Assembly: GCF_014773265.1 (NCBI RefSeq)
Contig: NZ_JACWMY010000001.1
Location: forward strand, 558,001-622,000
DNA length: 64,000 bases
DNA from: Mucilaginibacter pankratovii
GTDB taxonomy: Bacteria > Bacteroidota > Bacteroidia > Sphingobacteriales > Sphingobacteriaceae
Reading direction: 5' to 3'
In this document: one piece after another, positions 9,818 through 30,770 of the stretch
Numbering within the stretch: position 1 is the first letter of the stretch
Layout: each line of letters opens with the position of its first letter
Translations under genes and position numbers: made by a program
Notes under the pieces: model-generated
The model's database searches: none
What the model was told of the DNA's origin: nothing
Seen by the model: the letters and a program-made list of their open reading frames with translations, nothing else

Positions 9818-10296
9818 CTACATAACGTATTGAAAATCATATAATTTGGATTGCTTCATTAACTCGGCTGGTTCGATGTTGCTGTCCGTCAAAATGCAGT
9901 TTTGATGCACCCTCTCTAACTTTCGTAATAATGCTTCGCTACGCTTGACGTAATTGCTATCTGAAATTACGTTGCCATCGAAGGTGATGCGGTTGACCAT
10001 TAAATGGATATGCGGGTGTCCTGCATCATGGTGACGGAAGATCATATACTGATTATCGGTAAACCCCATGCCTTGTAAATAGTCGCTTCCGATTGCAAGA
10101 AGTTGATCATCGAGTTTGTCGATTCTTCCTGTAAGAAGTTAAGGCTGGTATGATACACATAATTACCAAGTGCGGGACGTCTGCGCCTTACCAAGTCGAT
10201 TTCCTTTTTGATAAGCGCTACATCCAGCGATGCCAAATTGGTTTCAAGCAGTTCGGCTCTTTGGCTGTTGTCTTTGAGATTTAGCTTTTTAAGGTT
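9818..10296 (-). pseudogene. Truncated, frameshifted MOB relaxase
   Basis: Minus-strand fragments give RAELLETNLASLDVALIKKE, ALGNYVYHTSLNF and then, after a one-base frame change near 10130, KLDDQLLAIGSDYLQGMGF and HHDAGHPHIHLMVNR. The last is the metal-binding three-histidine motif of relaxases of mobilizable and conjugative elements. The N-terminal region with the nicking tyrosine is gone: a stop codon precedes the first fragment, just after a start-like ATG at 10314 next to mobC. The chain also ends early at 9818. The gene is therefore dead on three counts. Gene order (mobC then relaxase) is the usual one in Bacteroidota mobilization modules. Confidence 0.85.
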
Positions 10297-10321
10297 TTAG
10301 CCTAACGCTCCCATAAAGCTT

Positions 10322-10681
10322 TTACCTCTCTTTTGATCCGCTATCATCTTTTAGTAAAAGCCTTAAGATCTTTTCCTCCTGCCGCAACAGCGCAGCAAGG
10401 GTTTTATCAATACCAAAAGGGAATTTGCCTGAGTCGGCGTGCCTTGTCAATTGGTTTAAGTTAACGCCGATTTTTTTTAATTCGACGTAGGTGTCCTCGT
10501 CAATTTTAGGCAACCGGGTAGCAGGGAAATGACCCTTAAATATCTTAGTCCTGACCAAGTCGCCTGGCTTAGTACCACACGAATCTGCAAGGGTCAACAA
10601 TCGCTGCCGTTGTTTTTCGGTTACCCTGAAAGTGATCTTTAAAGACCGCTTTTCTAATGGAGAAACTTTTGGCCTTGCCAT
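10322..10681 (-). CDS. mobC: MobC-like relaxosome accessory protein
   Basis: A 119-residue basic protein opening with LKITFRVTEKQRQRLLTLAD, a ribbon-helix-helix type DNA-binding start, and containing ELKKIGVNLNQLTRHADSG, the signature of plasmid mobilization relaxosome proteins (MobC/BmgB type). These bind the transfer origin and help the relaxase nick it. It is intact, but its partner relaxase gene downstream is broken, so transfer by this module is not expected without help in trans. The likely transfer origin would lie upstream, in the hairpin-rich 10.7-10.95 kb stretch. Confidence 0.85.
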   Translation of the reverse strand: MARPKVSPLEKRSLKITFRVTEKQRQRLLTLADSCGTKPGDLVRTKIFKGHFPATRLPKIDEDTYVELKKIGVNLNQLTRHADSGKFPFGIDKTLAALLRQEEKILRLLLKDDSGSKER

Positions 10682-26460: not shown

Positions 26461-28143
26461 TCAGTCCAGACCTTTTGGCTCACCGTATTTCGCCATGATT
26501 ACGGTGGATTTGTCCGTGATCTCCCTTATGATGTCGTCCAGTTCATGAGCAGATAGATTCAGAAAGTTGATGAGCTCGGTACGCTCCAGGTCATCGGCTG
26601 CGTTTGGTAACATCGGCAACAACCCCATAATGCGCGCTAATGGCGCACGAACAAGATGTGACTGCATCCAGGATATTTCCCGGAAAGTTTTGTTTTGTTC
26701 CTCAACAGAACGCAAGTATAATTTCCTTTCGGTGACGTCCCTTCCAGTTATACAGGCCCCGACTATACGCTGTTCTTCCCATACGGGGTTAAGGGTATAA
26801 CGGATCCATTGGACCGCCCCATTTGTTCGGAACATCCGGTCATAATCAACTGTATCTCCATTATAAACCTTGGTAATGATCTCATGGAAATAGGCCAGGC
26901 GCGATGTCTCAACATAATCAAAAATACTGCACCCGATTTTGAAGGGGCTTTGATGTTTATTGAACTTCATGGACTCCGAAGCTTTTGGGTTAAATAATTT
27001 AACCTTATGCTGCTGGTCTAATAGTACAAAGCCATCGATAGCATTATCAAACAACGTCCTAAGGTTGGACTCTGATTCTTTAACTTTCAGATTGGCCTCG
27101 TATAATTCCAACTGATGTTCCAATTGAGTGGTAATATCTGTCGATTGTACAAGTCGGACTTGACGCCCGTCCAGGCTCAACAAATTACTTTCAACGTTGA
27201 CATAAATAATTTCGCCGTTTTTTTTTAGGTGCCGCGAAACGCCCCCGTAATATTCACCCGATAATTTATTTGTACGAACCAGTTCTTCCGTTTGACGGAT
27301 ATTTTCTTTTTGTCTGATATCCATGATCGTCATAGACAGAAACTCTTCTCTAGTATAGCCATAATGCTCGGTTGCAGCCTCATTTATATCAAGGAATTTA
27401 AAAGTATCCGTATCGAATAACCACATGGGCAACGGACTCTTATTAAATATCTGGAGGTAGCGTTGCTGCAAATGGGTTTTGTCAACGATGGTCGACTGGA
27501 GACTCTGAAAGATTTTATCAATAAGTAAGACGATAACAGTACTTGCAAAGATCAGGTTCACACTGAATGCGATCCATTTCCCTGCACTGTATTCGTTTAT
27601 CAATGCAGAATGGAAAAGTTTAAAGCCAATGATAAAGGCGAAGACGGCAAGCAGTGCTGCGTTTAAAAATATAGAAAAATAAGAATAGCGTATTGGAAAT
27701 ATCAATGCTGACAACATGGTAATAAAAAAGAGGTAAAATACGCCGGGGCCAAGGTAACCTAGCGTATTGATCAGAAAAATAGCCAGGACATAGAAAATGG
27801 TTATCACACTGATCTTCCGATAACGCAGTTTGACCTTTGGCGCAACGGTCACTAGCATGATCAGGCCGAAACAAACAAGATCCACGACCGCGATTAGTAG
27901 GAACCCATCTTTTAAGGCCATGAACACACCGGGTAATAGTGCTATTAAACTTATAGGAAGGCAATAAACAAGAAAATTACTAAACAATCGGTCCTGCCAA
28001 TAACGCAGGTCGCGATCATTGTTGTCTGAGTAGCTCGAAATGTTAGCCCGGATAAAGGCTTCGTACCCTAATAAAATTCTTTTCATATCGCTGCCGTTAA
28101 TTAATAGTCGGGCGCTTGTGGACACCACAATGGTCTGTATCAC
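26461..28143 (-). CDS. Membrane PAS sensor protein with HisKA-like end but no ATPase domain
   Basis: A 560-residue protein. Six or so membrane segments fill about residues 50-210 (LIALLPGVFMALKDGFLLIA, FAFIIGFKLF and others). Two PAS domains follow (about 230-350 and 365-480). The end holds EISWMQSHLVRAPLARIMG, a HisKA-type helix with His496, as in many Bacteroidota kinases, but the chain stops 64 residues later with no N, G1 or G2 boxes. It cannot phosphorylate itself alone; a partner kinase or a non-phospho signalling role is needed. An internal ATG at 28086 (MKRILLGYEAF) is a possible alternative start. It is divergent from the response regulator at 28422. Confidence 0.88.
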   Translation of the reverse strand: MIQTIVVSTSARLLINGSDMKRILLGYEAFIRANISSYSDNNDRDLRYWQDRLFSNFLVYCLPISLIALLPGVFMALKDGFLLIAVVDLVCFGLIMLVTVAPKVKLRYRKISVITIFYVLAIFLINTLGYLGPGVFYLFFITMLSALIFPIRYSYFSIFLNAALLAVFAFIIGFKLFHSALINEYSAGKWIAFSVNLIFASTVIVLLIDKIFQSLQSTIVDKTHLQQRYLQIFNKSPLPMWLFDTDTFKFLDINEAATEHYGYTREEFLSMTIMDIRQKENIRQTEELVRTNKLSGEYYGGVSRHLKKNGEIIYVNVESNLLSLDGRQVRLVQSTDITTQLEHQLELYEANLKVKESESNLRTLFDNAIDGFVLLDQQHKVKLFNPKASESMKFNKHQSPFKIGCSIFDYVETSRLAYFHEIITKVYNGDTVDYDRMFRTNGAVQWIRYTLNPVWEEQRIVGACITGRDVTERKLYLRSVEEQNKTFREISWMQSHLVRAPLARIMGLLPMLPNAADDLERTELINFLNLSAHELDDIIREITDKSTVIMAKYGEPKGLD

Positions 28144-28421
28144 CCATTTGCTAACTTACTGAAATCTTACTGAAGTACACCTGCAGCAAAGTTTTAAATA
28201 AGGTATTAGGATCTCTCCGGATTTGAAACGAGGATGAATAAGACGGCTAATTTTATCTCAAAGAAGCCTGCCTGAAAAAGACAAGGAAGACAAGAAGATG
28301 TCTTTATTGTTTGCGTGAGCCGCGAGTTGCCCTCTCTTGCGTGCAGTTGCATAAAGGTTATTAAAGCGTGATGGGGCTTTAGCTATATTAATGACTATAT
28401 TACCGAACCTAAAGTTTAGCA

Positions 28422-28784
28422 ATGAAAAAAATTCTTATTATCGAGGATGATGAGGCTACGTTGGAATTGCTCGGCATCATTTGCGAGAATAGCGAAGTGG
28501 AAATAGTACTGAAGTCCAACGTGATAGGCCTCGCAGAGATTGAACGCATGAAGCCCGACCTGATTTTTTTGGACCACTGGATAGGGAGCAGCCTGGGAGG
28601 CGACCTGTGCTTGGAGATAAAGCAAAATGAAGCCACCAAGGATGTCCCGGTAATAATCATATCGGCCCTTACCGACATCGGGCAAATTTCCATGGACAAT
28701 TGCGCTGACGGCTGCATCATGAAGCCGTTCGATATAGAAGAAATCAGCGATGTTGTCGAGGCCTACATCGGCCGAGAACCCTGA
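28422..28784 (+). CDS. Single-domain response regulator
   Basis: A 120-residue receiver domain: acidic pocket Glu8-Asp9-Asp10, phospho-acceptor Asp51 in LIFLDHWIG, Ser81 and Lys101 (MKPFDI). No output domain. It starts with MKKILIIEDDEA 10 or so bases after an AAAG-rich stretch and is followed by a strong terminator at 28915-28935. It is divergent from the ATPase-less PAS protein, an arrangement that suggests a shared pathway. Confidence 0.92.
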   Translation: MKKILIIEDDEATLELLGIICENSEVEIVLKSNVIGLAEIERMKPDLIFLDHWIGSSLGGDLCLEIKQNEATKDVPVIIISALTDIGQISMDNCADGCIMKPFDIEEISDVVEAYIGREP

Positions 28785-28914
28785 GCAACGGCGCCGCCGA
28801 CGCCATTAGTCTCCGGAAACGTGTCATTGCACCGGAAAGCATCGCTACCTTGCAGCGGCATTTCAAGATCGTCCTCCAAACGCCTCGTCGCTTTTCCCCC
28901 GTCTTTATATGCAG

Positions 28915-28935
28915 AAAGCCTCCTCTGGAGGCTTT
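28915..28935 (+). terminator. Rho-independent terminator after response regulator
   Basis: A 9-base-pair stem (AAAGCCTCC, 28915-28923, with GGAGGCTTT, 28927-28935), 3-base loop, followed by more T residues to 28939. It also sits 60 bases past the stop codon of the minus-strand membrane gene and may serve both. Confidence 0.85.
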
Positions 28936-28994
28936 TTTTGCCTGATAGTTTCTGGCAGGATCGGCAAGCGACAAACGCTGCCTCTGTTAGCGAA

Positions 28995-29486
28995 CTATCT
29001 CGGCGTTTCAGGCGATTTCGCCGGTCGCTTTTGACGAATGGGAAACAATACGAACTCGATTGCGGTCGCTATCAGCGCGGGAAAGAAATAGCAGAGGAGA
29101 ACGACGGCTTGAACATACGGGCTGTGCACTCTTTGGCGAGTGATGAAAATTGCCGCGCAAAAAATCGCGGCCATGGCCGCAAAGAGAACTTTCAGGCTGG
29201 TGCTTTTCCTGAGCCCGATGAGCCCGAAAAGGCGGCAATAGGTCTTCGCGAGAGCAAAATATACCAGCGGATAGGGAAATAGCTGCATTGCCGCAAAAGG
29301 CCAAAACGGCTGCATTGCCGCATCGGGTGACGGCAGGATGACGAGAACGTACAGCAGGGGCGTGTTCGTCAAAACGAGCAGGCTGACAACGCTTAGGGCC
29401 TTGGCGAGCCAGCTCGCGCGCAGAAAGGTGGACTTAACAATATTCACAGATATGATTTTCGGCTTTAAACAAATTGCATTGCCCAA
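28995..29486 (-). CDS. Four-helix membrane protein of unknown family
   Basis: Up to 163 residues from a TTG at 29486; a GTG at 29447 is an alternative and no ATG lies near the front. Four hydrophobic segments are seen (about residues 28-52, 60-82, 95-115 and 125-150), followed by a basic tail (IRQKRPAKSPETPR). I do not recognise the family. Base and codon use is richer in G and C than in the flanking genes, as in the two zinc-ribbon genes just upstream. It begins 15 bases after the second zinc-ribbon gene and in the same reading frame, with only a TAG codon and five codons between them. Probably the third gene of one operon. Confidence 0.6.
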   Translation of the reverse strand: MGNAICLKPKIISVNIVKSTFLRASWLAKALSVVSLLVLTNTPLLYVLVILPSPDAAMQPFWPFAAMQLFPYPLVYFALAKTYCRLFGLIGLRKSTSLKVLFAAMAAIFCAAIFITRQRVHSPYVQAVVLLCYFFPALIATAIEFVLFPIRQKRPAKSPETPR

Positions 29487-29501
29487 TAAAGATTTAATGT
29501 G

Positions 29502-29678
29502 CTAAGGCATCATCCAGCGCCTGCGACCGCAGTTTCGGCACCGGTACCGCTTCAGCCGCAGCCACGAAAGCGTGATTTTGGCCGCCGCAGGCAACGGCAG
29601 TCGCTCGTATGACGCCGGACTGCGGGGGTCGCAGCCGCAGGCGGTAAAAACCGTCGTCTTTGAGTACAGTTTGGCCAT
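29502..29678 (-). CDS. Zinc-ribbon microprotein 2
   Basis: A 58-residue protein, start ATG at 29676-29678, stop TAG at 29502-29504. It has two cysteine pairs, ACGC near residue 14 and RYRCRNCGRRRW near the end, split by a 25-residue region with a leucine-rich stretch (ITLSWLRLKRY). It aligns with the neighbouring 57-residue protein: a CxC knuckle, a spacer with LR(L/R)xRY, a CxxC knuckle and a closing RxRW. The shared pattern between two adjacent frames is strong evidence that both are real. The fold is probably a zinc ribbon that binds nucleic acid or protein; the function is unknown. It is G+C-rich like its neighbours and ends 15 bases before the membrane gene. Confidence 0.62.
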   Translation of the reverse strand: MAKLYSKTTVFTACGCDPRSPASYERLPLPAAAKITLSWLRLKRYRCRNCGRRRWMMP

Positions 29679-29718
29679 CACGTCGAAATAATTATTTGCA
29701 GCGAAAATAGTCCCCCCA

Positions 29719-29892
29719 TCACTTTCCCAGCGTCCATCGCTTCCGGTCGCACATGTAGCACTTGTACCGCCTGAGCGGCAGCCAGAAGAGCAGCACTTTT
29801 GCCAGCAGCGGCCGGGGCGTTCGGATCCAGTCTGTTCTGCCGCAAATACAGGCTCTGAAAGGCTGCTGTCTCGTCGAGGAATTCGAAGTCAT
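29719..29892 (-). CDS. Zinc-ribbon microprotein 1
   Basis: A 57-residue basic protein, start ATG at 29890-29892, stop TGA at 29719-29721. Cysteines lie in CICGRTDW and in RRYKCYMCDRKRW, with a hydrophobic stretch PLLAKVLLFWLPL just before the second pair. It is a tandem paralog of the 58-residue product 40 bases downstream. A consensus promoter (29949-29977) points at it. Small Bacteroidota proteins with a CxxC, hydrophobic linker, RRYxCxxC layout are known only as hypothetical zinc-ribbon proteins, as far as I recall. First gene of a candidate three-gene operon. Confidence 0.62.
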   Translation of the reverse strand: MTSNSSTRQQPFRACICGRTDWIRTPRPLLAKVLLFWLPLRRYKCYMCDRKRWTLGK

Positions 29893-29948
29893 CGGTCTAA
29901 AAATAAGGTAAAACCAAGCCTCTCTTGCTTCGGCAATAAACGGTTGCT

Positions 29949-29977
29949 CAAATATAGCAATCGCCGCTTGAAATCAA
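29949..29977 (-). promoter_or_regulatory. Promoter of the zinc-ribbon operon
   Basis: On the minus strand TTG (29975-29977), 18-base spacer, TATATTTG (29949-29956), close to the TTG-N19-TAnnTTTG consensus. It leaves a leader of about 50 bases before the ATG at 29892. Confidence 0.6.
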
Positions 29978-30177
29978 GGAAGTATTGAATTTTCTAAGTT
30001 ATAATAGCCCCCGGAATCCCTTGCATCCTTTCAATCTGCGCGCAGACAGCCAAGTCGTAAGATGACAGCTTCGTCCGGCACGGCTATTTTGCACTGAAAT
30101 ACAAAGCCCCCTAACACTCGCTGCTCGGGGGTTCTAACCTAAGTATTATGATTTGAAAAACACCCGGGCTCATAAAA

Positions 30178-30770
30178 ATGCATATCATAAATAATCAACG
30201 GAGGACATTTTTGAAACAACAAGTAATTGAAGATGTGAACATTATGCCTCAATTAGATAAAGCCTGTGGTTTAGATATGCACAAAGACAAGATCGTAGGC
30301 TTTATTTCCGGGAAAGATGGCAACAATCAAGAGTTCAGGGAATTTGGTACTTACACCTGCGAATTCAAACAGATCAGAGACTGGTTACAGGAGAATGATA
30401 TTCATCATTGCCTGATGGAAAGCATGGGTATTTATTGGATGAGCTTATACCACTTACTCACTAAGCCGGTATTGAAGTCATTGTTGCAAATCCGGTTCAT
30501 ATCAAGCAAATGCCTAAGCGGAAAACTGATCGCAAGGATGCTAAATGGCTTTGTAGACTGTTATTACAAGGATCGGTACGGCCAAGTTTTATGCCAGATA
30601 ACACGCAACGAATAATCAGAGATTATTGCCGCAATCGGTTATTCTATAACAACATTACCAGTCATTTAAAAAAACCGGAAGATCATCATAAGCTTCGGAT
30701 AAAACCCAAAAAGCACCTCCTGCTCCGGGAGGTGCGATTACTATTAACTGATCTTCATATCACGTCATGA
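30178..30770 (+). pseudogene. IS110-family transposase remnant
   Basis: The front of an IS110-type DEDD transposase: KACGLDMHKDKIVGFISG with the first Asp, HHCLMESMGIYWMSLYHLL with the Glu, then, after a frame change near 30461-30466, AGIEVIVANPVHIKQMPKRK and TDRKDAKWLCRLLLQGS with the next Asp. It breaks off after CRNRLFYNN, about 160 residues into a protein normally over 300 long; the serine-containing second half is absent. The likely original start is the ATG at 30244. No terminal repeats are expected in this family. The element is dead. Confidence 0.85.
30713..30735 (-). terminator. Terminator for the M16 peptidase gene
   Basis: An 8-base-pair stem GCACCTCC/GGAGGTGC (30713-30720 with 30728-30735), 7-base loop. 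On the minus strand it is followed by TTTTTGGGTTTT, a good U-tract. It lies about 160 bases past the peptidase stop codon. Confidence 0.7.

Follow-up and report, generated by a model that had tools for sequence, protein, structure and literature searches.

Two adjacent short ORFs, P1 and P2, in the window (the whole 64,000-nucleotide stretch of Mucilaginibacter pankratovii DNA that was analyzed) are genuine, conserved coding genes, and they belong to a microprotein family that is native to the genus and near-universal there. The family is genetically linked to response regulators beyond chance, with few origins of the link. We tentatively prefer, over several rival readings, the proposal that P1 and P2 are basic zinc-ribbon proteins that bind nucleic acid or polymerase and act as outputs of stand-alone receivers, with the neighboring membrane protein (MP) as a local accessory. 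An unnamed pair of tiny ORFs thus becomes a defined conserved family with 1 to 16 copies per genome and its own consensus promoters, and it offers a link, open to testing, with the receiver-only response regulators, a class whose outputs are in many cases unidentified. The family is also a clean case of genes that almost all sampled species of a genus carry and for which annotation libraries have no model.

Gene content of the cassette

The minus-strand gene order is P1, then P2, then MP, converging on a plus-strand response regulator gene, RR (Table 1). P1, which has four conserved cysteines, and P2 have in common a C-x-C knuckle, a hydrophobic stretch, and L-[RK]-R-Y-x-C-x-x-C-x-R-x-R-W. An earlier note on this DNA had described this pattern and judged the agreement of the two frames unlikely to arise by chance. 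The CxC, hydrophobic, CxxC, and RxRW parts of its description stand, its LRxRY being slightly off since P1 and P2 give L-[RK]-R-Y, and its judgment is borne out by the two short ORFs in the window that match the motif regular expression versus none in 60 first-order Markov shuffles. The G+C contents of P1, P2, and MP (0.58, 0.63, and 0.54) exceed those of the flanking HK and M16 genes (0.42 to 0.47), as had also been noted. The mean G+C content of the other family members is 0.40, and high G+C is therefore no property of the family.

Table 1. Features of the window at and around the duplicated cassette
Feature	Position	Strand	Description
RR	28422..28784	(+)	Receiver-only response regulator, 120 aa; PF00072, E 1e-14; convergent, within duplicated segment
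T-tailed hairpin in the RR-MP gap	28915..28939	(+)	AAAGCCTCC-TCT-GGAGGCTTTTTTT, read directly from sequence
MP	28995..29447	(-)	Small membrane protein, 150 aa; about four hydrophobic segments (predicted), GTG start
P2	29502..29678	(-)	MAKLYSKTTVFTACGCDPRSPASYERLPLPAAAKITLSWLRLKRYRCRNCGRRRWMMP; 58 aa, putative zinc-ribbon microprotein, paralogous to P1, net charge +11
P1	29719..29892	(-)	MTSNSSTRQQPFRACICGRTDWIRTPRPLLAKVLLFWLPLRRYKCYMCDRKRWTLGK; 57 aa, putative CxC...CxxC zinc-ribbon microprotein, net charge +11
Promoter, Bacteroidota type (predicted)	29949..29977	(-)	TTG 29975-29977, TATATTTG 29949-29956; leader to P1 ~50 nt
Duplicated cassette promoter-P1-P2-MP><RR	28388..29986	.	blastn match to C28:215895-217421
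Decayed IS110-type transposase	30178..30770	(+)	Frame broken; between cassette and M16 peptidase gene

The MP start is most likely GTG 29447 rather than TTG 29486, because the second genomic copy, on C28, carries a TTG at the same place, closely preceded by an in-frame stop and directly preceded by a 1-nt indel. With this start the gap from P2 to MP is 54 nt; the gene order that had been proposed is retained, and the 15-base gap is not. The MP topology is a prediction from two sources only, hydropathy and a structure model of low confidence (pLDDT, 57). MP is present in only 1 of 149 genomes of the genus, that of M. pankratovii, in two copies, and no homologs were found among 301 genomes of the taxonomic family (its own apart) or in plasmids. 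Two further weak matches in the genus search were rejected, since they lie on the antisense strand of a conserved membrane-protein gene (424 aa). The three-gene arrangement that the earlier note called an operon therefore recurs in both copies of the segment but is not a general rule, being one genome's variant within a microprotein family of much wider spread.

The hairpin between RR and MP is a probable terminator of RR; its stem is kept in the C28 copy, and a scan of the sequence did not list it. No Rfam elements were found in the 28.3- to 30.2-kb region. Divergent from RR, a MASE11-PAS-PAS protein gene (26461 to 28143) stops right after a weak HisKA match and has no HATPase domain; it is possibly a kinase lacking its catalytic part.

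Second genomic copy and purifying selection

A search of the M. pankratovii genome (6.37 Mb in 34 contigs) found a second copy of the segment, aligned to the first in one blastn match of 72.6% identity across 1,608 columns. The P1, P2, and MP ORFs are under purifying selection. P1 is 72% identical to its C28 paralog, with a dN/dS (Nei-Gojobori) of 0.26 in frame against 0.84 and 1.21 for its alternative frames; the dN/dS of P2 is 0.19, that of MP 0.23 (70% identity), and that of RR 0.12 (77% identity). For P1, P2, and MP, the two alternative frames on the same strand together span 0.84 to 1.9, so that the substitution-rate comparison proposed in the earlier note speaks for all three genes. When these three genes are read in their proposed frames, differences between the copies are most frequent at third codon positions, and indels are absent from P1 and P2 and present in the intergenic stretches. 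Orthologous tandem pairs in other species give median dN/dS values of 0.10 and 0.09 (9 and 8 comparisons; dS, ~1.2).

Promoter and transcription unit

The promoter upstream of P1 has the layout TTG-N18-TATATTTG. The earlier note had placed a promoter at this site. It is not sigma-70-like, and a scan for such promoters did not list it; it matches the Bacteroidota consensus, which has TTTG at -33 and TAnnTTTG at -7 (PMC6847099, PMC7366714). The TATATTTG box is identical in the window, the C28 copy, a C1 homolog, and M. pedocola, and the sequence around it has diverged among these four homologous loci. TAHHTTTG occurs within 150 nt upstream of 36 of the 76 first or single family genes (shuffle mean, 7.5; maximum, 13), mostly 36 to 76 nt before the start, and upstream of only 2 of the 24 second genes of pairs, a scarcity that fits a bicistronic unit. 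These motifs are most naturally read as one housekeeping-type Bacteroidota promoter that would drive P1 and P2 as a bicistronic unit behind a ~50-nt leader.

Distribution and pairing of the microprotein family

A profile built from an alignment of 28 members detected the family in 59 of the 60 sampled genomes of the genus, with 1 to 16 copies each, and detected at least one member in 10 of the 25 genera sampled from the taxonomic family and in 7 of the 139 genera in a phylum-wide sample. The cysteine columns of the alignment are invariant. Both cysteine knuckles (CxC/CxxC...CxxC, 15 to 45 residues apart) are kept in 100 of 100 analyzed members, a conservation that is partly circular, the search profile and the regular expression themselves containing the cysteines. 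These 100 members average 65 aa in length and +10 in net charge. The homolog search with neighborhood comparison that the earlier note had suggested found relatives with conserved cysteines in other genomes. Its view that such short genes are usually missed also fits; neither Pfam nor NCBIfam holds a model, and a relative on a Spirosoma plasmid sits in a stretch with no listed gene, in an incomplete gene table.

Family members often form maintained tandem pairs. In the tree, the common pair splits into one clade of first members and another of second members, which indicates that this pair is old and that both copies were retained. P1 and P2 fall in other subclades (the tree is weak, the proteins being short), and tandem pairing therefore seems to have arisen more than once. 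Both the C28 copy and M. pedocola have homologs of P1 and P2 in tandem. In the latter (L017, 5001 to 5352), the two overlap by 8 nt, which suggests translational coupling, and MP is not downstream. Two loci (L142 and L143, genus g36) contain five-gene family clusters on both strands near polysaccharide-type genes, of which one resembles a pyruvyl transferase and one an acyltransferase by eye.

Predicted fold and comparison with known families

P1 and P2 are, as a best guess, paralogous, strongly basic zinc beta-ribbon microproteins. The AlphaFold microprotein model, of moderate confidence (pLDDT, 68), has the order E-H-E-E (E22-25, H29-34, E40-45, and E51-55), and the structures that it matches best are, with few exceptions, zinc ribbons or fingers, including NrdR, RPB9, TFIIS, and ribosomal ribbons, all weak matches (Foldseek/VIA; Foldseek E, 0.4 at best; Z, <3). 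The NrdR, TFIIS, and RPB9 ribbons share with the P1/P2 model two cysteine knuckles, beta hairpins, and a basic hairpin. NrdR itself has about 150 aa and an ATP-cone, whereas P1 and P2 have 57 to 58 aa without an ATP-cone or other domain, and the NrdR model has no match in the seven genomes searched, that of M. pankratovii included. Pfam, NCBIfam, and PHROG hold no fitting model for P1, P2, or the family, and a named-family assignment from PDB sequence profile matches was rejected, these being eukaryotic C2H2 fingers. The Pfam scan of the family listed 25 of 56 matching models. Among the matches listed, DUF6431 (PF20020) matches 7 of 28 members weakly; the likeness lies over the second knuckle, only part of the profile is covered, and P2 scores 13.9 bits, below the curated cutoff of 26.6, and P1 has no match. 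The YacG Pfam model matches neither P1 nor P2 at E values up to 1. As far as the searched libraries go, the family and its context are new; the predicted fold is already known.

Ruc (Rv0991c) is a small zinc-ribbon chaperone (PMC7448276), and its small size and four cysteines are shared with P1 and P2, as is the zinc ribbon predicted for them. That the family consists of redox- or zinc-responsive chaperones or zinc stores of this kind is improbable. The size class and cysteine number agree, and 5 of 28 members match Zn_ribbon_8 (PF09723), but these matches are not significant (best E, 0.012, among the matches listed), neither P1 nor P2 matches this model, the long disordered C-terminal tail of Ruc is absent, and both the conserved hydrophobic turn and the response regulator linkage would be left unexplained.

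Weak matches to transposase ribbons, namely, Zn_ribbon_InsA in one member (E, 0.00065) and Zn_ribbon_IS1595 in five (best E, 0.0063), both among the matches listed, and the PHROG 5749 transposase in seven (best E, 0.0011), agree with solo ribbons derived from IS1 InsA- or IS1595-type transposases. An origin of the family from such a ribbon is possible. That the ribbons are now functionless is very hard to credit; no catalytic domain is attached, the genes have their own conserved promoters, and the strong purifying selection seen in dN/dS largely refutes it.

Linkage to receiver-only response regulators

Response regulators of the receiver-only kind have no output domain. Both conserved neighbors described here (RR-A and RR-B) and the window RR are receiver only, like single-domain response regulators. 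Sixty flanks were picked by profile score regardless of context, and 53 loci of the genus were counted for adjacency. A receiver-only regulator adjoins the family gene in 22 of the 53, and such regulators make up 36 of 106 adjacent genes versus 0 of 205 more distant ones; all 36 are codirectional with the family gene. The raw Fisher P value of 1e-19 was set aside as a headline because orthologous loci are not independent. Collapsed by shared synteny, 3 of 25 contexts have an adjacent regulator (P, ~0.001, against a rough background of 0.9%), and the link is thus well conserved where present but of few independent origins; one locus, L133, may be the same cassette moved. The M. pankratovii genome has 24 receiver-only regulator genes by frame length, and four of its eight family loci lie within 2.1 kb of such a gene (expected, 0.13; P, ~1e-5, or 4e-4 with the duplicated cassette counted once).

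A recurring order, with Z standing for a family gene, is RR-Z-Z-RR on a single strand with the two distinct types RR-A and RR-B; the regulators stand 166 to 388 nt from the pair, for which a separate promoter is mostly present. Searches of open-license papers found no such pair between two receiver-only regulators. Further orders are M16 peptidase-Z-Z-RR and TPR/transmembrane regulator-RR-Z. The latter is conserved in L114, L120, L123, and L134, with a regulator of 592 to 595 aa whose C terminus looks HTH-like by eye, a 121-aa receiver-only protein, and the family gene; a gap in this order in L120 is 43 nt. Relatives in other genera adjoin LytTR response regulators, and one member in the genus adjoins a hybrid regulator. 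The window RR has no close homologs in other species that adjoin family genes.

The neighborhood with phosphorylation-switch proteins suggests a role in cell signaling. Zinc ribbons of transcription proteins contact nucleic acid or RNA polymerase, and by analogy the basic hairpin K/R-R-Y-x-C-x-x-C-x-R/K may do the same; the LLFWLP turn that links the knuckles, hydrophobic and conserved, is a possible docking surface for a partner. That partner would, in many loci of the genus, most likely be a receiver-only response regulator, and the microproteins could serve as its separate output, since these regulators have no output domain of their own. In the window, MP might tether or modulate the P1/P2 pair and the convergent RR might be the cognate switch, these being the two weakest points of the proposal. 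Against such a split output, most family contexts have no response regulator, the window RR is convergent and separated from the pair by MP, and the gaps and separate promoters of the RR-Z-Z-RR loci make cotranscription with the regulators no more than a possibility. A bolder version, in which split response regulators occur genus-wide as receivers with detachable tandem zinc-ribbon outputs that are also packaged with a membrane protein as integrative-element cargo, appears unlikely.

Relatives with a transmembrane helix

Three distant relatives from another class (L150, 1497 to 1739; L153, 1512 to 1760; and L154, 1414 to 1662) have a transmembrane helix N-terminal to the ribbon (KD19 maxima, 2.0 to 2.9), the sole recognizable N-terminal additions among the family genes examined. 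Long open frames around some other family genes were rejected as fusions, being upstream read-through or N-terminal extensions with nothing recognizable in them. YacG, a small zinc protein and gyrase inhibitor, binds DNA gyrase, and the microproteins could likewise be membrane-proximal adaptors or enzyme inhibitors whose ribbon binds a protein at the inner membrane, with MP as the anchor and a target other than nucleic acid. The helices of these relatives, the LLFWLP motif, and the co-operonic membrane gene in both cassette copies are in its favor. We consider it somewhat unlikely, given that MP is absent from every other searched genome having the family, that neither P1 nor P2 has a segment of membrane length (KD19 maxima, 0.84 and 0.38), and that a net charge of +11 also suits nucleic acid.

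Mobile elements around the cassette

The C28 cassette copy is cargo of a ~16-kb element (C28:201960-217950; L179 and L180), in which it occupies one end; the element also encodes a pair of large serine recombinases along with T4SS coupling-protein-like ATPases. Its insertion splits comM/yifB, a Mg-chelatase-like gene that is intact in L129, into an N part (200895 to 201959) and a C part (217951 to 218439). The window copy stands beside the IS110 remnant and at the edge of a 17-kb low-G+C stretch (11 to 28 kb) with many probable secreted-protein genes; the stretch starts beside a truncated relaxase (PF03432) and a NikA/MobC-like gene (9818 to 10681), a remnant ~18 kb from the cassette. This remnant and the 11- to 28-kb stretch possibly form a decayed mobilizable island. 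Beyond the cassette, the window and the C28 region have just a 52-bp match in common.

From the C28 element and the IS110 and relaxase/MobC remnants, we conclude that the four-gene cassette has probably been mobile, the microprotein family itself being native to the genus. The transfer proposed in the earlier note thus probably holds for the cassette and not for the near-universal family, and the G+C richness on which it was based is insufficient alone. The same remnants, the serine-recombinase element, and the end of shared homology at the cassette boundaries would also suit Z-Z-MP-RR as cargo of integrative elements that serves the element (in regulation, stability, or exclusion) and not the host. 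This seems quite unlikely for a family that 59 of the 60 sampled genomes of the genus contain, in many cases at conserved chromosomal sites and in old maintained pairs, and that has no well-matching PHROG family and no phage match.
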